24,199 nt of DNA, from the IMG/VR virus record IMGVR_UViG_3300008450_000436, positions 1 through 24,199 of that record. One strand, 5' to 3'. Made by a program: the position numbers and the translations under genes. This document shows, piece after piece, positions 150 through 24,199 of this stretch (the stretch's first letter is position 1; every line of letters starts with the position of its first letter). The notes beneath the pieces were generated by a model. The model worked only from the letters and a program-made list of their open reading frames with translations, ran no database searches and was not told the origin of the DNA. Origin of the DNA: a virus.

Positions 150-1922
150 ATGGCGCAAGAAACATTAATTTCCCCAGGTGTTCTCACACGTGAGAATGAC
201 TTATCCCAAATAACCCAACTTCCTGTTACTGTTGGATTAGCATTGGTTGGACCGACTGTTAAAGGACAACCATACATCCCTACTGTAGTTACATCATATA
301 GTGATTATATTAATCGCTTTGGTGGCTCATTTGTTAGTGGTGGTGCTAGCTATGAATTTTTAACTTCAATAGCAGCGTATAATTACTTCCAACAAGGTGG
401 TGAAACAATATTAGTAACAAGAGTTGTAAGTGGATCATTTACTCCATCATCAGCTAGTATTTTAATCTCAGGAAGTGATACAACATACACCACATCATCA
501 TTCGTTTTAGAAACATTAAACTACGGTTTATTTACTGACAATAGTGGATCTATTTTGAGCAATGGTGGTTTAAGTAGTGGTTCAATGGAGAATGTAAGAT
601 GGGAAGTTACAAATGTTAACCAGACTCAAGGTACATTCACTGTATTAGTTCGTCGTGGTGATGATAATGATCTTAATAAAGTTGTTTTAGAAACATTTAC
701 TAATGTATCATTAGATTCAAATCAACCAAATTATATAGCTTCTGTGATTGGTAACCAATCTAGAACTTTATCATACGATGCGGATATGGGTGGATGGTAT
801 ATTCAAATATCTGGTGACTATCCAAATAATAGCCGCTATGTAAGAGTTAAATCTGTAAATTCTCCAACCCCTAATTATTTTAATAATGCAGGTGGAGTAG
901 CAGTTAATGGAGTTGGTGGTAGCCCATTATATGGATTAAGTTACTCAGCTTCATTACCATTAGCTGGATCTGGATCTTATGGTGGATCATTTGATGGTGG
1001 TGCTGGTGATGATATTCCATATGTTGGAAACACATTATTCGGAAACATTAGCACTACAACTCAAGGTTTACCAGCTTCTAACTATTTAACAGCTAGTAAT
1101 ATTTTAGCTAATAAAGATGAATATGATTATGAATTATTAGTTACCCCAGGTTTGATCAAAACTGATCACTCTTCAGCTGTAACTAGTTTCATAACTAACG
1201 CTGAACAAAGAGGTGATTATTTTTATATCACTGACTTAAAAGGATATAATAGTACTTTAACACAAGTTGTTAACGCAGCTGCTGGTACAAATACCAACTA
1301 CGCTGGTGCTTATTGGCCTTGGGTTCAAGTAGTATCTCAAGAAACTGGTAAATTAGTTTGGGTACCTGCTTCAACTGTAATGGCTGGTGTGTATGCCTTT
1401 AATGATAATGTAAGTGCTGAATGGTTCGCTCCAGCTGGTTTAAACAGAGGTGGATTAGGCGGTGTTATTCAAGCAGAAAGAAAATTATCTCCAACAAATC
1501 GTGATAATTTATATGCTGGTAAAGTTAATCCAATCGCTACTTTCCCTAATGTTGGTGTAACAGCTTTTGGTCAGAAAACATTACAACAAAAAGCAAGTGC
1601 TTTAGATAGAATCAATGTTCGTAGATTATTAATTGCTCTTAAACGTTACGTTGGTAATGTAGCTAAGACATTAGTATTTGAACAAAATACAACTGTAACA
1701 AGAAACAGATTCTTATCTCAAGTTACTCCATATCTTGAATCAGTACAACAAAGACAAGGTTTATACGCGTTCAAAGTTGTAATGGATGAAACAAATAACA
1801 CTCCAGATGTAATCGATAGAAATCAGTTAGTAGGTCAAATTTACTTACAACCAACTCGTACAGCTGAATTTATCCTCTTAGATTTCAACATCTTACCAAC
1901 TGGTGTAGAATTCGGTTCATAA
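150..1922 (+). CDS. 18: Tail sheath protein (T4 gp18-like)
   Basis: This 590-aa protein is the contractile sheath subunit that polymerises around the tail tube and shortens to drive the tube into the host envelope. The N-terminus carries the typical sheath opening (SPGVLTREND). The middle is Ser/Gly/Thr-rich and variable, as in the exposed sheath domains. From about residue 470 the conserved C-terminal domain follows (AFGQKTLQ, then INVRRLLIALKRYV, then LQPTRTAEFILLDF near the end); this domain makes the sheath-sheath contacts. T4 gp18 is somewhat longer (659 aa), so the variable domains are smaller here. The ATG follows an A-rich spacer without a Shine-Dalgarno sequence. The tail tube gene follows after 37 nt, the usual order in T4-like phages. 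The family assignment is firm. Confidence 0.95.
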   Translation: MAQETLISPGVLTRENDLSQITQLPVTVGLALVGPTVKGQPYIPTVVTSYSDYINRFGGSFVSGGASYEFLTSIAAYNYFQQGGETILVTRVVSGSFTPSSASILISGSDTTYTTSSFVLETLNYGLFTDNSGSILSNGGLSSGSMENVRWEVTNVNQTQGTFTVLVRRGDDNDLNKVVLETFTNVSLDSNQPNYIASVIGNQSRTLSYDADMGGWYIQISGDYPNNSRYVRVKSVNSPTPNYFNNAGGVAVNGVGGSPLYGLSYSASLPLAGSGSYGGSFDGGAGDDIPYVGNTLFGNISTTTQGLPASNYLTASNILANKDEYDYELLVTPGLIKTDHSSAVTSFITNAEQRGDYFYITDLKGYNSTLTQVVNAAAGTNTNYAGAYWPWVQVVSQETGKLVWVPASTVMAGVYAFNDNVSAEWFAPAGLNRGGLGGVIQAERKLSPTNRDNLYAGKVNPIATFPNVGVTAFGQKTLQQKASALDRINVRRLLIALKRYVGNVAKTLVFEQNTTVTRNRFLSQVTPYLESVQQRQGLYAFKVVMDETNNTPDVIDRNQLVGQIYLQPTRTAEFILLDFNILPTGVEFGS

Positions 1923-1959: not shown

Positions 1960-2445
1960 ATGGCAGTATTAGATCCAAATGAAATAATGTTCACAGCGTT
2001 TGAACCTAAAGTTCAAAATCGCTTTGTGATGTACATTGATGGAATCCCAACCTATTTAATTAAAAAAGCATCTTCACCATCATTTAACGCTGGTGAGATT
2101 ATATTAGACCATATAAACGTTTACCGTAAAGTTAAAGGTAAAGTTAGATGGGAAGATATGAACTTAGAGCTTTATGATCCTGTAACTCCATCAGGCGCTC
2201 AAGCAGTGATGGAATGGGCTCGTTTAGCACATGAATCAGTAACTGGTAGAGATGGATATAGCGATTTCTATAAAAAAGATTTACGCTTAGATATCTTAGG
2301 TCCAGTTGGTGATGTAGTAGGTGAATGGATTATCAAAGGTGCTTATGTTAAAACAGCTAACTTTGGTGAGTATGACTGGTCAAATGAAGCTTACATCAGT
2401 ATCGCTATGACTATCGCTATGGATTACTGCATATTGAATTACTAA
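1960..2445 (+). CDS. 19: Tail tube protein (T4 gp19-like)
   Basis: This 161-aa protein matches the tail tube family in length (T4 gp19 is 163 aa) and layout. It has an N-terminal segment reading NRFVMYIDGIPTYLIKKASSPSF, split here by description only: the NRF..YIDG strand is followed by the basic KKASSPSF turn. A central part (KVRWEDMNLELYDP) precedes the C-terminal strand pairing region (AYISIAMTIAMDYC). Tube subunits stack as hexameric rings on the baseplate and are surrounded by the sheath. It sits directly after the sheath gene and is followed by a strong terminator, so sheath and tube form a two-gene unit. The ATG is preceded by an A/C-rich spacer. Confidence 0.93.
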   Translation: MAVLDPNEIMFTAFEPKVQNRFVMYIDGIPTYLIKKASSPSFNAGEIILDHINVYRKVKGKVRWEDMNLELYDPVTPSGAQAVMEWARLAHESVTGRDGYSDFYKKDLRLDILGPVGDVVGEWIIKGAYVKTANFGEYDWSNEAYISIAMTIAMDYCILNY

Positions 2446-2469
2446 TCTGAACACAGTGCCTATAATAAG

Positions 2470-2502
2470 AGCCGTCCATTTGGACGGCTTTTTTTATTTT
2501 TG
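2470..2502 (+). terminator. Rho-independent terminator after the tail tube gene
   Basis: An 8-bp perfect GC-rich stem (AGCCGTCC with GGACGGCT) closes an ATTT loop and runs into TTTTTTTATTTTT. This is the clearest terminator in the window. It ends the sheath-tube transcript and separates these high-copy products from the baseplate genes. Confidence 0.93.
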
Positions 2503-2534: not shown

Positions 2535-3293
2535 ATGGAAGAAAAATTTAAGTATCCAACTGAGCAAATTGATTTACCATCTAAAGGTTTACTTTATCCT
2601 GAATCATCTCCATTGTCTAAAGGTGTAGTTGAGATGAAATACATGACAGCTAAAGAAGAAGATATTCTCACCAATGTTAACTTTATTAGACAAGGTGTTG
2701 TGATTGATAAACTGTTACAATCAATGATTGTTACACCTATTGATTATAATGAATTATTAAATGGTGATAAAAATGCCATTTTAATTGCTGCTCGTATTTT
2801 AGGATATGGTAAGGATTATGAATTTATGCTTGGCAATCCAGAAACAGGAGAGAGTGAAAAAGCAACAGCTGATCTAACTCAAATTGAAACAAAACCATTA
2901 GATGAATCCTTATTCACTCGTGGTAAAAATGAATTTAGTTTTACATTACCGTTTTCTAAAGTTAATGTGACTTTTAAATTATTAACTCATGGTGATGAGA
3001 AAAAAATTGATAAAGAAATTGAAGGATTGAAAAAAATTAACGCTCAATCTATTACTACTATAACTACTCGTTTAAAACATATTATCACTTCTGTTAATGG
3101 TGATAGAGAAGTAGCTACAGTTCGTGAATTTGTAGATAATATGTTAGCTAGAGATGTAAAAGCATTACGTGATTATGTCAATAAAATAACACCAGATGTT
3201 AATTTAAAAGTTAACGCGGTTAAAGAAAATGGTGATGTAGTGGAGGGCATCGAGTTACCAATTGGTGTTAGCTTTTTTTGGCCTGAATCTTGA
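2535..3293 (+). CDS. Baseplate protein of the T4 gp26 family
   Basis: This 252-aa frame-0 product resembles the T4 gp26-type baseplate family (Pfam T4_baseplate). The recognisable parts are the opening DLPSKGLLYP, the MTAKEEDIL segment near residue 40, and the region about residues 50-90 ending AARILGYGKDYE. In T4, gp26 belongs to the baseplate hub and its assembly. The gene lies between tube and tape measure, the place where other phages encode the frameshifted tail assembly chaperones. Frame 0 ends ...GVSFFWPES and stops at TGA 3291-3293, just after a run of seven T (3273-3279). The +1 frame stays open to 3540 and encodes a protein-like extension, described separately, so this may be the shorter of two products. 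Confidence 0.78.
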   Translation: MEEKFKYPTEQIDLPSKGLLYPESSPLSKGVVEMKYMTAKEEDILTNVNFIRQGVVIDKLLQSMIVTPIDYNELLNGDKNAILIAARILGYGKDYEFMLGNPETGESEKATADLTQIETKPLDESLFTRGKNEFSFTLPFSKVNVTFKLLTHGDEKKIDKEIEGLKKINAQSITTITTRLKHIITSVNGDREVATVREFVDNMLARDVKALRDYVNKITPDVNLKVNAVKENGDVVEGIELPIGVSFFWPES

Positions 3294-3540
3294 GTATAAA
3301 AATATTGTACTAGAAGAAGTACATTCATTATGTTATCACGGGAATGGTGGCTTTACTCATAGTGAAGTTTATAATATGCCTATCAGATATAGGCACTACC
3401 ATTTGAAAAAAATAGCTGAATTTATAGAAAAACAAAGTGAAGCTATGCGTGGTGATAAAGAAATAACAGAAGATACAAAACTTCCTAATAAAGTCCAACC
3501 ACCAGACTTTGTAAGTAAAGTGAAAGCGCCTAAAAAATAG
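3262..3540 (+). CDS. +1-frame extension of the gp26-like protein, probably made by frameshifting
   Basis: This frame overlaps the end of the gp26-like gene and has no ATG before its Tyr-Asn-Met-Pro segment; the only upstream start-like codons are TTG (3262) and GTG (3265). The peptide from 3280 on (GLNLEYKNIVLEEVHSLCYH, then GGFTHSEVYNMP, then a basic helical tail) is protein-like and far longer than chance would suggest. The overlap contains CTTTTTTT and, at the frame-0 stop, TCT TGA G. A +1 slip at either site (or -2 on the T run) would give a fusion of about 334-335 aa. Alternatives are translation from TTG/GTG or a homopolymer indel in the assembly. The tape measure gene follows, which supports a chaperone or assembly role. 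Function is not proven. Confidence 0.6.
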   Translation: MVLAFFGLNLEYKNIVLEEVHSLCYHGNGGFTHSEVYNMPIRYRHYHLKKIAEFIEKQSEAMRGDKEITEDTKLPNKVQPPDFVSKVKAPKK

Positions 3541-3550
3541 GGCGCTTTCA
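3521..3550 (+). other. Perfect hairpin straddling the extension stop codon
   Basis: TGAAAGCGCC (3521-3530) pairs perfectly with GGCGCTTTCA (3541-3550) around a 10-nt loop that contains the TAG stop at 3538-3540. No T-run follows, so it is not a standard terminator. It could be a weak terminator, a processing site or a 3'-end stabiliser ahead of the tape measure gene. Confidence 0.6.
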
Positions 3551-3557
3551 TATTTAT
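3549..3557 (+). promoter_or_regulatory. CATATTTAT box upstream of the tape measure gene
   Basis: The box overlaps the last two bases of the preceding hairpin and ends 21 nt before the ATG at 3579. The hairpin-box-gene arrangement mirrors the terminator-box-gene pattern seen at 2470-2535. Confidence 0.35.
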
Positions 3558-3578: not shown

Positions 3579-6008
3579 ATGCCAGATCCACAACAGCAAG
3601 ATCCACAACAGCAGGCCGCTTTTAATGATGAATTACAAGAAACAAATGATTTATTAAAAGATACTAAGGATATAGTTGATACACTAAGAAATGATTTTTT
3701 AGGTATAGGATCAGCTATTGAGAATGGACTTAAAGTTAAAATAAAAGATCTTAAAGGAGATACTAAAAAAGTAGCTCAAACTATATCAAATGATATAGCT
3801 AAAGGCTTTAGAAAACTAAGAATAGATTCTTCAGACTTAGTTGATCTAACAAAGAAACAATTAGCTGGATCTTTAAAAATAAAAGATGTTAACTCAGCTA
3901 TAGAGACTATTAAAAGTAATCATGCATCTTTAGAAAACTCAATTAAAGAAGCTGTATCTGAAAATTTAATGAGTGAGACTGAGGGTAAAGATCTATTAGA
4001 AATTGTACTTGAAAGAAAAAAAACACAATTAGCTTTAGCTAAACAGTTAGCTGATGAAGCAGAAAGACAGGAAAAGGCTTTAGGTATAACATATAAAATA
4101 TTTGATGGTATAGCTAAAATACCCATACTTAATTCTCTTATTAAAATAGAGAAAGTTAAAGAAGCTATGGAAGGAGCTGCTGCTAACACTAACTCAGCTT
4201 GGGGTGTTTTTAGAAAAGGTGTAGCTGCTTCTTTTCAACAAATAGGGAAATCTTTAAAAGATCCATTAATTATATTAGGTCTTCAAGTAGCTTTATTTAA
4301 GAAAATTTTTGATATTAATAAAGAAATAAATGAGAGACAAGTAGCTCAACAAAAGTCTTTAGGTATATCATATGATCAATCACAAAAATTAGCTCAAAGT
4401 ACATTTGAATACGCTAACGCTACTAATGATGTTTTTGTAACTGAAAAACGATTAACAGAAGGTAGAACCAAACTAAATGAACTATTAGGCACTAGTGTTG
4501 TTTATACTAATCAATCAGTTGAAGGTTTTGAACGTTTAACTCATTATTATGGTGTAAGTGAAGAAAGCGCCGCTAAATTAACTGAGTTAGCTACTCAACA
4601 AGGTACATCTACTAAAGATATTCTTGGTTCTACTATTAGAACAGCTAATGAACAAAAAAGACAATTTGGTGGAACAATAAGTTATCAAAAAGTATTACAA
4701 AAAGTAAGTTCTACTGGTGGTGAAATATTGACTAAATTTAAAGGTAACACTCAAGAATTAGCTAAAGCAGTAATGCAAGCTGATAGATTAGGTTTAAACT
4801 TAGATCAGGTTAATAAAATAGGTGAATCATTACTTGATTTTGAATCTTCAATTGAAAATGAACTTAAAGCTGAATTATTAACTGGTAAACAAATAAATTT
4901 AGAAAGAGCCAGAGCAGCTGCTTTATCAGGTGATTTATCTAAATTAACTACTGAGATCGCTCAACAAACAGGCGGTATAGCTCAATTCCAAAAGATGAAT
5001 GCTATACAACAAAAAGCATACGCTGAAGCTTTTGGTATGACTACCGCTGAGATGGGTGATATGCTCCGTAAACGTGAGTTTGAAGCTAAACTAGGAGCAG
5101 ACGCTAAAAAATCAGCTGAAGAACAACTTAGAATAGCCGATGAAAGAGGTATTAAGATAGATGAAAGTATTAGAAAAGATCTTGAAGCTAAAACATTGGC
5201 TGATAAACAAAAATATGTTTTTGAAAAAATAGCTGAAATTATAGGAAGAATAACAGCTGGTCCTATGGGTAAGTTTATGAAGATGTTAGAGGGTGCTTTA
5301 GGATTTGTAGAAAAAATATTTAGCTTTTTTGGCAAAATAACAGGTGGTGTATTAGGTGATGCTTTAGGAGCGGCTATTATGGGAGCTCCTTTATTGATAG
5401 GACTTACAAAAATGTTAATTGGCGGAGCTAAAAATTTATTTTTTGGTAAACCATCTGGTAGAGCTGGAGATCCTGTACATACAACTCAAGGCGCTGGAGG
5501 TGGTGGTTTAGCAGATATGTTTAGTGGTGGATTTGGAAAAAAAGGTTTAGTTAAAAAATTTGGAGCTAAAGGAGCTAGAAATATTATAAGAGGAGCTAAA
5601 GGACTTGGAGGATTTGGCATAGGTGCCGCTGTAGGACTTGGAGCTGACTTAATATCAGATCAAATGGAAGAGGGTGGGGCTAAAGATACAGTATCTGGAA
5701 TTGGTACAGTAGCTTCATATGCTGGTACAGGAGCTATGATTGGATCTATCATACCAGGTGTTGGTACAGCTATTGGAGCTGGTGTTGGAGCTATAGCTGG
5801 TGCTATTAAAGGATTATTTGATGCTGAAACTAATAAACGTGAACGTGAAGAAAAAGCTAAACAACAGCGTGAAGATCAACAGAAAAAAACAAATGAATTA
5901 TTAGCGCAATTCTTAGATAGACCTGTACAATTAAATGTTGGAGGTAAAACAATACTTGACTTTAACACAGCGTCTAATCTATATGGAAACCAGCAGAGTT
6001 CATTCTAA
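3579..6008 (+). CDS. Tail tape measure protein
   Basis: This 809-aa protein sets tail length by spanning the lumen of the growing tube, and is released during DNA entry. Its composition is typical: a long Lys/Glu/Ala-rich helical N-terminal half with coiled-coil character (about residues 10-170 and 240-560), then hydrophobic Gly/Ala-rich segments. One lies at about residues 588-625 (GVLGDALGAAIMGAPLLIGL) and a second at about 713-746, rich in GxxxG spacing (GAMIGSIIPGVGTAIGAGVG). A charged coil (NKREREEKAKQQREDQQKK) and a short conserved-looking C-terminus follow. The hydrophobic parts could insert into the host inner membrane. It lies just after the gp26-like/frameshift gene, as expected. 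The ATG at 3579 precedes a Gln/Pro-rich start (PDPQQQDPQQQ). T4 gp29 is a functional counterpart, but direct homology is not visible. Confidence 0.88.
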   Translation: MPDPQQQDPQQQAAFNDELQETNDLLKDTKDIVDTLRNDFLGIGSAIENGLKVKIKDLKGDTKKVAQTISNDIAKGFRKLRIDSSDLVDLTKKQLAGSLKIKDVNSAIETIKSNHASLENSIKEAVSENLMSETEGKDLLEIVLERKKTQLALAKQLADEAERQEKALGITYKIFDGIAKIPILNSLIKIEKVKEAMEGAAANTNSAWGVFRKGVAASFQQIGKSLKDPLIILGLQVALFKKIFDINKEINERQVAQQKSLGISYDQSQKLAQSTFEYANATNDVFVTEKRLTEGRTKLNELLGTSVVYTNQSVEGFERLTHYYGVSEESAAKLTELATQQGTSTKDILGSTIRTANEQKRQFGGTISYQKVLQKVSSTGGEILTKFKGNTQELAKAVMQADRLGLNLDQVNKIGESLLDFESSIENELKAELLTGKQINLERARAAALSGDLSKLTTEIAQQTGGIAQFQKMNAIQQKAYAEAFGMTTAEMGDMLRKREFEAKLGADAKKSAEEQLRIADERGIKIDESIRKDLEAKTLADKQKYVFEKIAEIIGRITAGPMGKFMKMLEGALGFVEKIFSFFGKITGGVLGDALGAAIMGAPLLIGLTKMLIGGAKNLFFGKPSGRAGDPVHTTQGAGGGGLADMFSGGFGKKGLVKKFGAKGARNIIRGAKGLGGFGIGAAVGLGADLISDQMEEGGAKDTVSGIGTVASYAGTGAMIGSIIPGVGTAIGAGVGAIAGAIKGLFDAETNKREREEKAKQQREDQQKKTNELLAQFLDRPVQLNVGGKTILDFNTASNLYGNQQSSF

Positions 6009-19773: not shown

Positions 19774-21811
<2,038 letters not shown>

Positions 21812-22783: not shown

Positions 22784-23552
22784 GTTACCTTTTGAGTTAT
22801 TACATAAAAGTTATGAATGGAATGATTATGATTATTGTCTACCTCATTTGATAGATAAATCAGATCAGTATAGATTATTCTTTCAAAAAGCACGTTTAGA
22901 CAAACGTTTTATTATTATGGATAATGGTTTGTTTGAAGGAGTAACTCATACACTTAGTGATCTTTTTGATAAAATTAATTTAATTCGTCCTAATATATTT
23001 ATAGTTCCTGATGAATGGAATGACTCTAATAGAACTTTAGTTAACGCTAAAAGTTGGATGATTAACCATAAAAATAAACTACCAGAAGGAGTTGAATTAA
23101 TGGCTGTATGTCAGGGGAAAGATATATCTGAGTTAATAAGAGTATATCAAATATTAGTTGATTTAGGATATAAACATATAGCGTTTAATCATTCAAGTAT
23201 TGCTTATACTGAATTTTATCCTAATCATTCTAAGTTATTTGCTCAAATGTATGGTAGAATTGAGTTAGTAAGACGTTTAATCGAAACAAAAGCAGTTAGA
23301 GAAAACATATATCATCATTTATTAGGTGTAGCATTACCTCAGGAAATAATGGCTTATAGTCGTATTGATTGGATTAAATCAGTTGACACATCTAATCCAA
23401 TTATTGTAGGTTATAAAGGAGAACGTTATGGAGATAATGGTATTGAGTTTAAACCTACTGAAAAAATTGAAGAACTAAATAAAGTAGATTTGGAACCTAT
23501 GATGGAAGATATTATTTTTAATGTAAATAAATTTAAACAATTCATAAAATGA
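22767..23552 (+). CDS. dpdA: TGT-like transglycosylase, DpdA-type candidate
   Basis: This protein (261 aa from the ATG at 22767) resembles the base-exchange TIM-barrel of tRNA-guanine transglycosylases and the phage DpdA proteins, which swap guanine in DNA for a 7-deazaguanine. FIIMDNGLFEG (Asp52) fits the N-terminal acid region. The block HHLLGVALPQEIM, then IDWIKSVDTSNP, aligns with the TGT region carrying the catalytic Asp (MFDCVMP), placing the nucleophile at Asp207. TGT enzymes are about 380 aa and keep a zinc-binding Cys/His cluster near the end; this protein lacks it and is shorter, as in DNA-acting relatives. The open frame extends upstream only through a TTG at 22731, so the ATG was chosen. 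It overlaps queC by 4 nt. DNA rather than tRNA as substrate is inferred. Confidence 0.68.
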   Translation: MKVSHELPFELLHKSYEWNDYDYCLPHLIDKSDQYRLFFQKARLDKRFIIMDNGLFEGVTHTLSDLFDKINLIRPNIFIVPDEWNDSNRTLVNAKSWMINHKNKLPEGVELMAVCQGKDISELIRVYQILVDLGYKHIAFNHSSIAYTEFYPNHSKLFAQMYGRIELVRRLIETKAVRENIYHHLLGVALPQEIMAYSRIDWIKSVDTSNPIIVGYKGERYGDNGIEFKPTEKIEELNKVDLEPMMEDIIFNVNKFKQFIK

Positions 23553-24199
23553 AAAAACAAGCAGTATTATCATTAAGTGGAGGGATGGATAGCTCCACCT
23601 TGCTGCTTCATCTACTCGCCTCTGGCTATGAAGTTACAGCTCTATCCTTTGATTATGGACAAAAGCATCGCGTTGAACTTGAGCGTGCTAAATCATTAGT
23701 AGAATATATTAATGATAGAATGTTCCGTACTAAAATAGACAATTTTGTTAAACATCAAGTAATTAAATTAGATGGTTTACAAAAATTACTTAATTCATCA
23801 CTTGTAACAGGTGGTAAAGATGTTCCTGAAGGACATTATGAGCAGGACAATATGAAAGAAACAGTTGTTCCTAATCGAAACAAAATTTTTGCTTCATTGA
23901 TTCAAGCAGTAGCGTTATCAATTGCTACTAAACCTATTACAGATGATTGTAGTATAGGTCAAGAAGTAGTTATTGCAATGGGTATTCACGCTGGTGATCA
24001 CGCTATTTATCCTGATTGTAGACAAGAATTTAGAGATGCTGATTTTGAAGCATTTAAAACAGGTAACTGGGATAGTGAATTAGTATCACATTATACTCCA
24101 TATCTTTATGTGAATAAATTTGATATTTTAAAAGATGGAGAAAAATGTTGTGAAGTATTAGATTTAAATTTTGATGAAGTTTATAAACGTACTAATACA
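23549..24199 (+). CDS. queC: 7-cyano-7-deazaguanine synthase QueC (partial, runs off the window)
   Basis: QueC converts 7-carboxy-7-deazaguanine to preQ0 with ATP and ammonia. The 217 codons visible read from ATG 23549, overlapping the previous stop as ATGA. The PP-loop is clear (SLSGGMDSSTLL, residues 9-20), followed by SFDYGQKHRVEL. VVPNRNKIFASLI comes next, then GDHAIYPDCRQEF. The frame is open to the window end after YKRTNT. The C-terminal Cys cluster that binds zinc in QueC would follow and is not visible. Its codon use near the start is less AT-biased than that of its neighbours. With QueD and the TGT-like gene it forms a preQ0 synthesis and insertion set. Confidence 0.96.
   Translation, partial: MKKQAVLSLSGGMDSSTLLLHLLASGYEVTALSFDYGQKHRVELERAKSLVEYINDRMFRTKIDNFVKHQVIKLDGLQKLLNSSLVTGGKDVPEGHYEQDNMKETVVPNRNKIFASLIQAVALSIATKPITDDCSIGQEVVIAMGIHAGDHAIYPDCRQEFRDADFEAFKTGNWDSELVSHYTPYLYVNKFDILKDGEKCCEVLDLNFDEVYKRTNT
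23575..23601 (+). other. Moderate hairpin at the queC PP-loop codons
   Basis: GTGGAG (23577-23582) pairs with CTCCAC (23593-23598) around a 10-nt loop, and AA (23575-23576) can pair with TT (23600-23601) past a bulged C. It lies about 25 nt downstream of the queC start, over the codons for SGGMDSST. It is weaker than the two 17-bp hairpins and may be chance. Confidence 0.4.

Follow-up and report, generated by a model that had tools for sequence, protein, structure and literature searches.

Ribosomal frameshifting in the genes of tail assembly chaperones is a textbook case of recoding. In phage lambda, the chaperone forms gpG and gpGT arise by a −1 frameshift (Xu, Hendrix & Duda 2004; reviewed in Atkins 2016, PMC5009743), and the review describes the G-T frameshift as widely conserved 'except T4', with a direction of −1, −2 or +1 depending on the phage, including a +1 chaperone frameshift in the haloarchaeal virus HSTV-2 (PMC5009743). 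T4 itself contains two separate paralogous genes, gp26 and gp51, and no frameshift. According to the papers that cite them, Vladimirov, Gautam & Davidson (2022) reported T4-like phages that have a short and a long gene for the chaperone (PMC10885494, PMC12846349), as well as poly-T −1 signals in T4-like chaperones (PMC10885494, the PRFect paper; PMC12846349, the Adele paper); the latter paper also places −1 poly-T sites in the chaperones of contractile-tailed phages of the Vandenendeviridae and Andersonviridae (PMC12846349). As far as these citing papers relate it, the identity of the chaperone and the occurrence of frameshifting in the wider T4-like group are at least partly known already; the conserved +1 site that we describe here, together with the base that apparently sets its direction, appears to be new.

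We analysed a stretch of virus DNA of 24,199 nucleotides, hereafter the window, comprising positions 1 to 24,199 of the IMG/VR record IMGVR_UViG_3300008450_000436. Its genes for the tail sheath, the tail tube, a gp26-family protein and the tape measure protein follow each other (Table 1), and the same order occurs in Flavobacterium phage immuto, Bacillus phage SP-15 and Listeria phage LIS04. A preliminary description of this DNA, made from the sequence alone, had pointed to a candidate frameshift at the end of the gp26-like gene, which it located between tube and tape measure; PHROG matches confirmed this order, and all the coordinates it gave were right. Frame 0 runs from the ATG at 2535 to the TGA at 3291-3293, ending in AGC TTT TTT TGG CCT GAA TCT TGA. 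The +1 frame stays open between 3241 and its TAG at 3538-3540 and does not contain an ATG in the vicinity of the overlap, where a TTG at 3262 and a GTG at 3265 are the only candidate starts. Both a run of seven T (3273-3279) and the motif TCT TGA G (3288-3294) are present as described. Runs of seven T are not unusual in this AT-rich window (23 seen vs 34 expected), so that the run is ordinary by itself and becomes special through its conservation; the sequence TTTYTTTGGCCT was found once, vs 0.02 times expected. As in the lambda gpG/gpGT system, a short gene with an overlapping extension in another frame lies just before the tape measure gene and contains a conserved slippery site, but the proposed direction is +1 instead of −1, and the protein belongs to the PF12322 family, without a lambda-type heptamer. 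HSTV-2 shares the +1 direction proposed for our locus and is likewise a contractile-tailed virus. The window also encodes a B12-type ribonucleotide reductase (19774-21621) and, at its end, a QueC-like protein (23549-24199).

Table 1. Position of the tail genes and of the proposed recoding elements in the window.
Feature	Coordinates	Strand	Evidence
Tail sheath	150-1922		Context
Tail tube protein	1960..2445	+	PHROG 4542, E 3e-23
Terminator-like hairpin 5' of the chaperone gene	2467..2492	+	
Short product TAC-N, T4 gp26-family tail assembly chaperone, 252 aa, C-terminus ...SFFWPES*	2535..3293	+	PF12322, PHROG 150, model
Base 5' of the Phe-Phe run, a C in the window; would guard against −1 slip	3272..3272	+	Non-T in 258/264 relatives
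Putative recoding site TTT TTT TGG CCT	3273..3284	+	Conservation, wobble-phase switch, motif counts
Proposed P-site codon, with +1 slip onto 3277-3279; A-site TGG 3279-3281	3276-3278	+	
+1-frame extension TAC-C, 86 codons GGC...AAA, then TAG	3280..3540	+	Comparison, codon-position signature, 3-helix model
Predicted long product TAC-NC after +1 slip, 334 aa	2535..3540	+	Inferred
Terminator-like hairpin over the end of the extension, with the extension stop codon in the loop region	3520..3551	+	
Tape measure protein	3579..6008	+	PHROG 167, E 8e-6, and position

The frame-0 product scored 41.8 bits against Pfam PF12322, above the cut-off of 24.5, and matched PHROG 150 with an E value of 5e-15. 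T4 has two full-length PF12322 proteins, gp26 and gp51 (L207:3803-4429 and 4480-5226), a short and long pair that originates from duplication instead of frameshifting. The short form and the extension were modelled as separate halves. The model of the short form (pLDDT 94) did not retrieve any match at E 0.001 or better with Foldseek, and in a second look at the PDB the top hit was the HK97 tail assembly chaperone gp13 (2ob9), with a modest Z of 5.1 over 79 residues at 3.9 Å, the next unrelated chain scoring 2.9. The likeness to tail chaperones proposed in the preliminary description, which had referred to lambda- and Mu-type phages, fits these results, the relatives that matter being T4 gp26/gp51 and HK97 gp13. 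Judging by its family, its fold and its position, we infer that the locus codes for a tail assembly chaperone with a short and a long form. If these work like lambda gpG/gpGT, the tape measure protein would be coated by the short form, and the few long forms would bring in the tube protein.

The extension was modelled as three helices and shows the conserved pattern L..EY..(20)..GG....VY.MPI..R, and a PDB structure search with the extension alone retrieved nothing convincing. The extension of the window matched DUF6760 (PF20546) weakly (E 0.033; 14.7 bits, for a cut-off of 27); matches to this domain at E 0.1 or better were found in 29 of 90 extension members, the best one at 3e-5, and four MAG genomes yielded one sub-threshold match. 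NCBIfam comparisons returned nothing useful, and DUF6760 was not mentioned in the literature that we searched. T4 gp51 contains around 48 residues past the shared domain that resemble the extension by eye; hhalign comparison of both gave an E value of about 0.05, and other gp51 windows scored as high.

Scanning IMG/VR with the frame-0 protein yielded 80 loci with 47–99% identity, and using alignments as queries we widened the set to more distant members, up to 274 distinct contexts of 120 nt from IMG/VR and from phage records. Alignment of the homologous regions, which had been suggested as a check, revealed a conserved overlap with a frame change and a slippery motif. Among the close relatives, the extension is always in the +1 frame where the sequence runs far enough, with the sole exception of L080, whose gene is broken upstream, perhaps by an indel, and the overlap reads TTT TTT TGG CCT or TTT CTT TGG CCT, rarely TTT CTT TAC CCT. 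In the whole set, 270 of the 274 contexts have the extension in the +1 frame, down to ca. 25% identity, although these and the following counts come from sequences related by descent, most of them from one broad clade, and are not independent tests. The site is most often TTT TTT TGG CCT (198 cases), followed by TTT TTT TAC CCT (26), TTT CTT TGG CCT (17) and TTT CTT TAC CCT (6), with TTC TTT T.., TTT CTT CTC, TTC TTT CGT and TTT TTT CAC as rarer forms; the A-site codon is hence TGG, TAC, TTC or CGT across relatives. The +1 set includes the cultured phages Flavobacterium phage immuto, Microcystis phage Mel-JY01, Rhodothermus phage RM378 (site TCC TTT TTT TGG AAT), Bacillus phage SP-15, Listeria phage LIS04 and Streptococcus phage GXN1, and the +1 layout also appeared in all seven testable relatives of the window type from bacterial-genome contigs. 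Streptomyces phages LuckySocke and pSt2308 apparently use +1 at TTT-C. In L309, the site is TTC TTC TGG and the extension is in the other frame, which might reflect an indel or a changed arrangement. In the distant LR756511 and Agrobacterium phage Atu_ph07 (L087, L089) the extension apparently forms an ORF of its own in a different frame, which in LR756511 has its own ATG overlapping the region of the frame-0 stop.

Homopolymer indels are a common sequencing error, and an indel introduced by sequencing or assembly, or else a pseudogene, might disguise a gene that is truly a single open frame. Beyond this general frequency of homopolymer errors we found no support for such an origin: a search for a single uninterrupted frame, which would have spoken against the preliminary description, found none among the 274 contexts, and the motif is common to independent assemblies and to complete genomes of cultured phages. 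We thus give practically no credit to this explanation. Since the layout and the motif recur in hundreds of relatives, neither chance nor indel error explains the window.

The TTTYTTTGGCCT block is the most conserved stretch in 258 aligned contexts, with TTT-YTT-T nearly invariant while the frame-0 stop varies among TGA, TAA and TAG and is found 9–21 nt downstream of the A site. Upstream of the site, frame-0 third positions are free in these contexts (0.0–0.4 bits); downstream of it, the free third positions are those of the +1 frame, and frame-0 third positions are constrained. The third-base freedom therefore switches frame at the site, which places the phase change between the TTT before the P-site codon and the CCT. 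Likewise, codon usage at the site is biased as expected for reading in two frames: Pro is encoded by CCT in 158/160 cases vs 37% elsewhere in the gene, Asp by GAC in 133/136 vs 19%, and the first Phe of the site by TTT in 161/161 vs 83%. Together, these comparisons strongly support the programmed frameshift from frame 0 to the +1 extension that the preliminary description had put forward, and a programmed +1 ribosomal frameshift in the tail assembly chaperone gene, with predicted short and long forms, is in our opinion highly probable. What the comparison shows is the conserved architecture, the site and the selection in both frames, from which we conclude that ribosomes probably slip here.

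The preliminary description left several options for the slip, including a +1 movement at the stop codon itself, TCT-TGA-G, as in the RF2 genes. The motif exists in the window, but in most relatives frame 0 terminates at another place, at a TAA or TAG and without this motif, and the +1 frame is conserved already upstream of the stop, so that this option has a negligible probability; from these alignments, the putative slip is at the T run and not at TCT-TGA. The +1 movement on the T run is the option that stood. All 258 contexts have TTT or CTT as their P-site codon, followed by a pyrimidine in 257 of them; with YUU followed by a pyrimidine, tRNA-Phe or tRNA-Leu can re-pair on UUY, as a +1 slip requires. 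The tree requires at least 10 changes in the P-site codon, all of them between TTT and CTT, with 6 changes in the preceding codon and 14 in the A-site codon. The single case that fits a +1 slip poorly is that of phage LIS04 (TTT TTT AGT), because UUU-A would allow only poor re-pairing.

The other movement proposed on the T run, a −2 slip as in phage Mu, would likewise end up in the extension frame but add one Phe, for a product of 335 aa vs 334 aa for a +1 slip, both lengths having been correctly predicted beforehand. The seven T would permit the tRNA on the P-site UUU at 3276-3278 to re-pair on the UUU at 3274-3276, and the LIS04 site fits −2 better than +1. Nevertheless, Mu-type re-pairing two bases upstream fails in the members with TTC-TTT (L086, L211, L213, L288, L292, L293, L318 and others), where a Phe tRNA would have to pair with UCU, and a −2 slip leaves unexplained the pyrimidine that follows YTT in all contexts but one. 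We consider it unlikely, and the +1 slip would be strongly favoured over it.

In the +1 slip that we propose, most ribosomes would stay in frame 0 and terminate at 3291, producing the short form of 252 aa. In a fraction of ribosomes, the P-site tRNA on 3276-3278 (UUU; CUU in some relatives) would move one base forward and re-pair on 3277-3279 (UUU), and reading in +1 would then continue to 3538. The resulting long form would consist of the short-form sequence plus a helical C-terminal domain. The prfB (RF2) site is similar in that a P-site YUU, followed by a pyrimidine, slips +1 onto UUU; it differs in its A-site stop codon UGA, replaced in the window type by UGG, UAC or UUC, and in its Shine-Dalgarno-like element, of which no conserved counterpart or purine run is visible just before the site in the 258 aligned contexts. 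We did not find conserved downstream RNA structure in the relatives either (mean z −0.9 vs shuffles). The hairpin noted in the preliminary description at 3306-3323 does exist, with 5–6 bp, but it is not kept in relatives, and we rejected it as a stimulator.

The extension might instead be a separate gene, starting by translational coupling at a TTG, GTG or CTG in the overlap. The window offers the two non-ATG starts mentioned above, CTG is common just past the site, and in LR756511 the extension has an ATG of its own right after the frame-0 stop. However, between the upstream stop of the extension frame and 60 nt past the frame-0 stop, 53 of 161 relatives do not contain any ATG, GTG or TTG, and in 12 of the 161 a +1-frame stop is found 9 nt before the slip point; in turn, CTG is replaced by CTT or CTA in L069-L071, L073 and L075. 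Given these missing starts, nearby stops and losses of CTG, a separate start is not a general explanation, despite LR756511; it also leaves the invariant TTT-YTT-T unexplained, and we regard it as very improbable for the window. Slippage of the RNA polymerase on the seven T at 3273-3279, generating messages with an altered number of U, appears still less probable and was rejected, because a C breaks the run in all the CTT and TTC variants, which keep the layout, and because CTT arose repeatedly.

The base that precedes the run differs for the most part between these putative +1 sites and the members with a −1-frame extension. T is the last base of the codon preceding the run in only 6/264 relatives, vs 142 expected from the synonymous usage of the genes themselves. 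For instance, this codon is AAC in 94 cases and AAT in 3, yet AAT makes up 71% of the Asn codons in these genes; at other places in these genes, a T precedes 26% of the comparable in-frame TTT codons. A T before the run would create U-UUU-UUN, so that a non-T base avoids the classic −1 heptamer, and T-TTT-TTN (U-UUU-UUN) occurs in only 3/264 relatives. Conversely, in distant PF12322 members with a −1-frame extension, a T precedes the run, at the same Phe-Phe position, in 6/6 cases: T TTT TTG in L376 and L378, T TTT TTC in L380, L381 and Pseudomonas phage Paride, and T TTT TTT in Xanthomonas phage XacN1. These members and the −1 poly-T chaperones of the Adele paper resemble the window in having a T run at the end of the short gene and the extension just downstream, and differ from it in the T before the run, which gives U-UUU-UUN, vs a non-T base and a +1 frame in the window type. 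With L376 (2260-2275), L378, L380, L381, L390 and L391 as distant PF12322 members that have a −1-frame extension behind U-UUU-UUN, the family would use both frameshift directions. It is about an even chance that members of the PF12322 family slip at the same Phe-Phe codons, some forward and others backward, and that the preceding base sets the direction, T leading to −1 and any other base allowing only +1 at YUU-Y, with T4 having duplicated genes instead. The role of this base in setting the direction is suggested by its correlation with the frame among related contexts.

Frameshifting would extend to the chaperone family of T4, the phage long held to be the exception, and to a very large environmental group of contractile-tailed phages, through a +1 slip at a simple YUU-Y site whose A-site codon is not a stop. 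The use of one site in two directions would also constitute a natural experiment on forward vs backward slipping of the ribosome. Hundreds of related environmental phages keep the arrangement, and public annotations miss the extension: in the records of immuto, Mel-JY01, RM378, SP-15, LIS04 and GXN1 it appears as a separate hypothetical ORF or is unannotated, and never as part of the chaperone. The gp26-type genes and the small hypothetical ORFs downstream of them in immuto, RM378, SP-15 and Mel-JY01 would hence be misannotated.

The 5' arm of the hairpin at the end of the extension (GCGCC...GGGCGC) encodes the 'KAPKK' that is common at the C-terminus of the extension, and hairpins near the extension stop are commoner than in a control stretch (86 vs 53 of 169).
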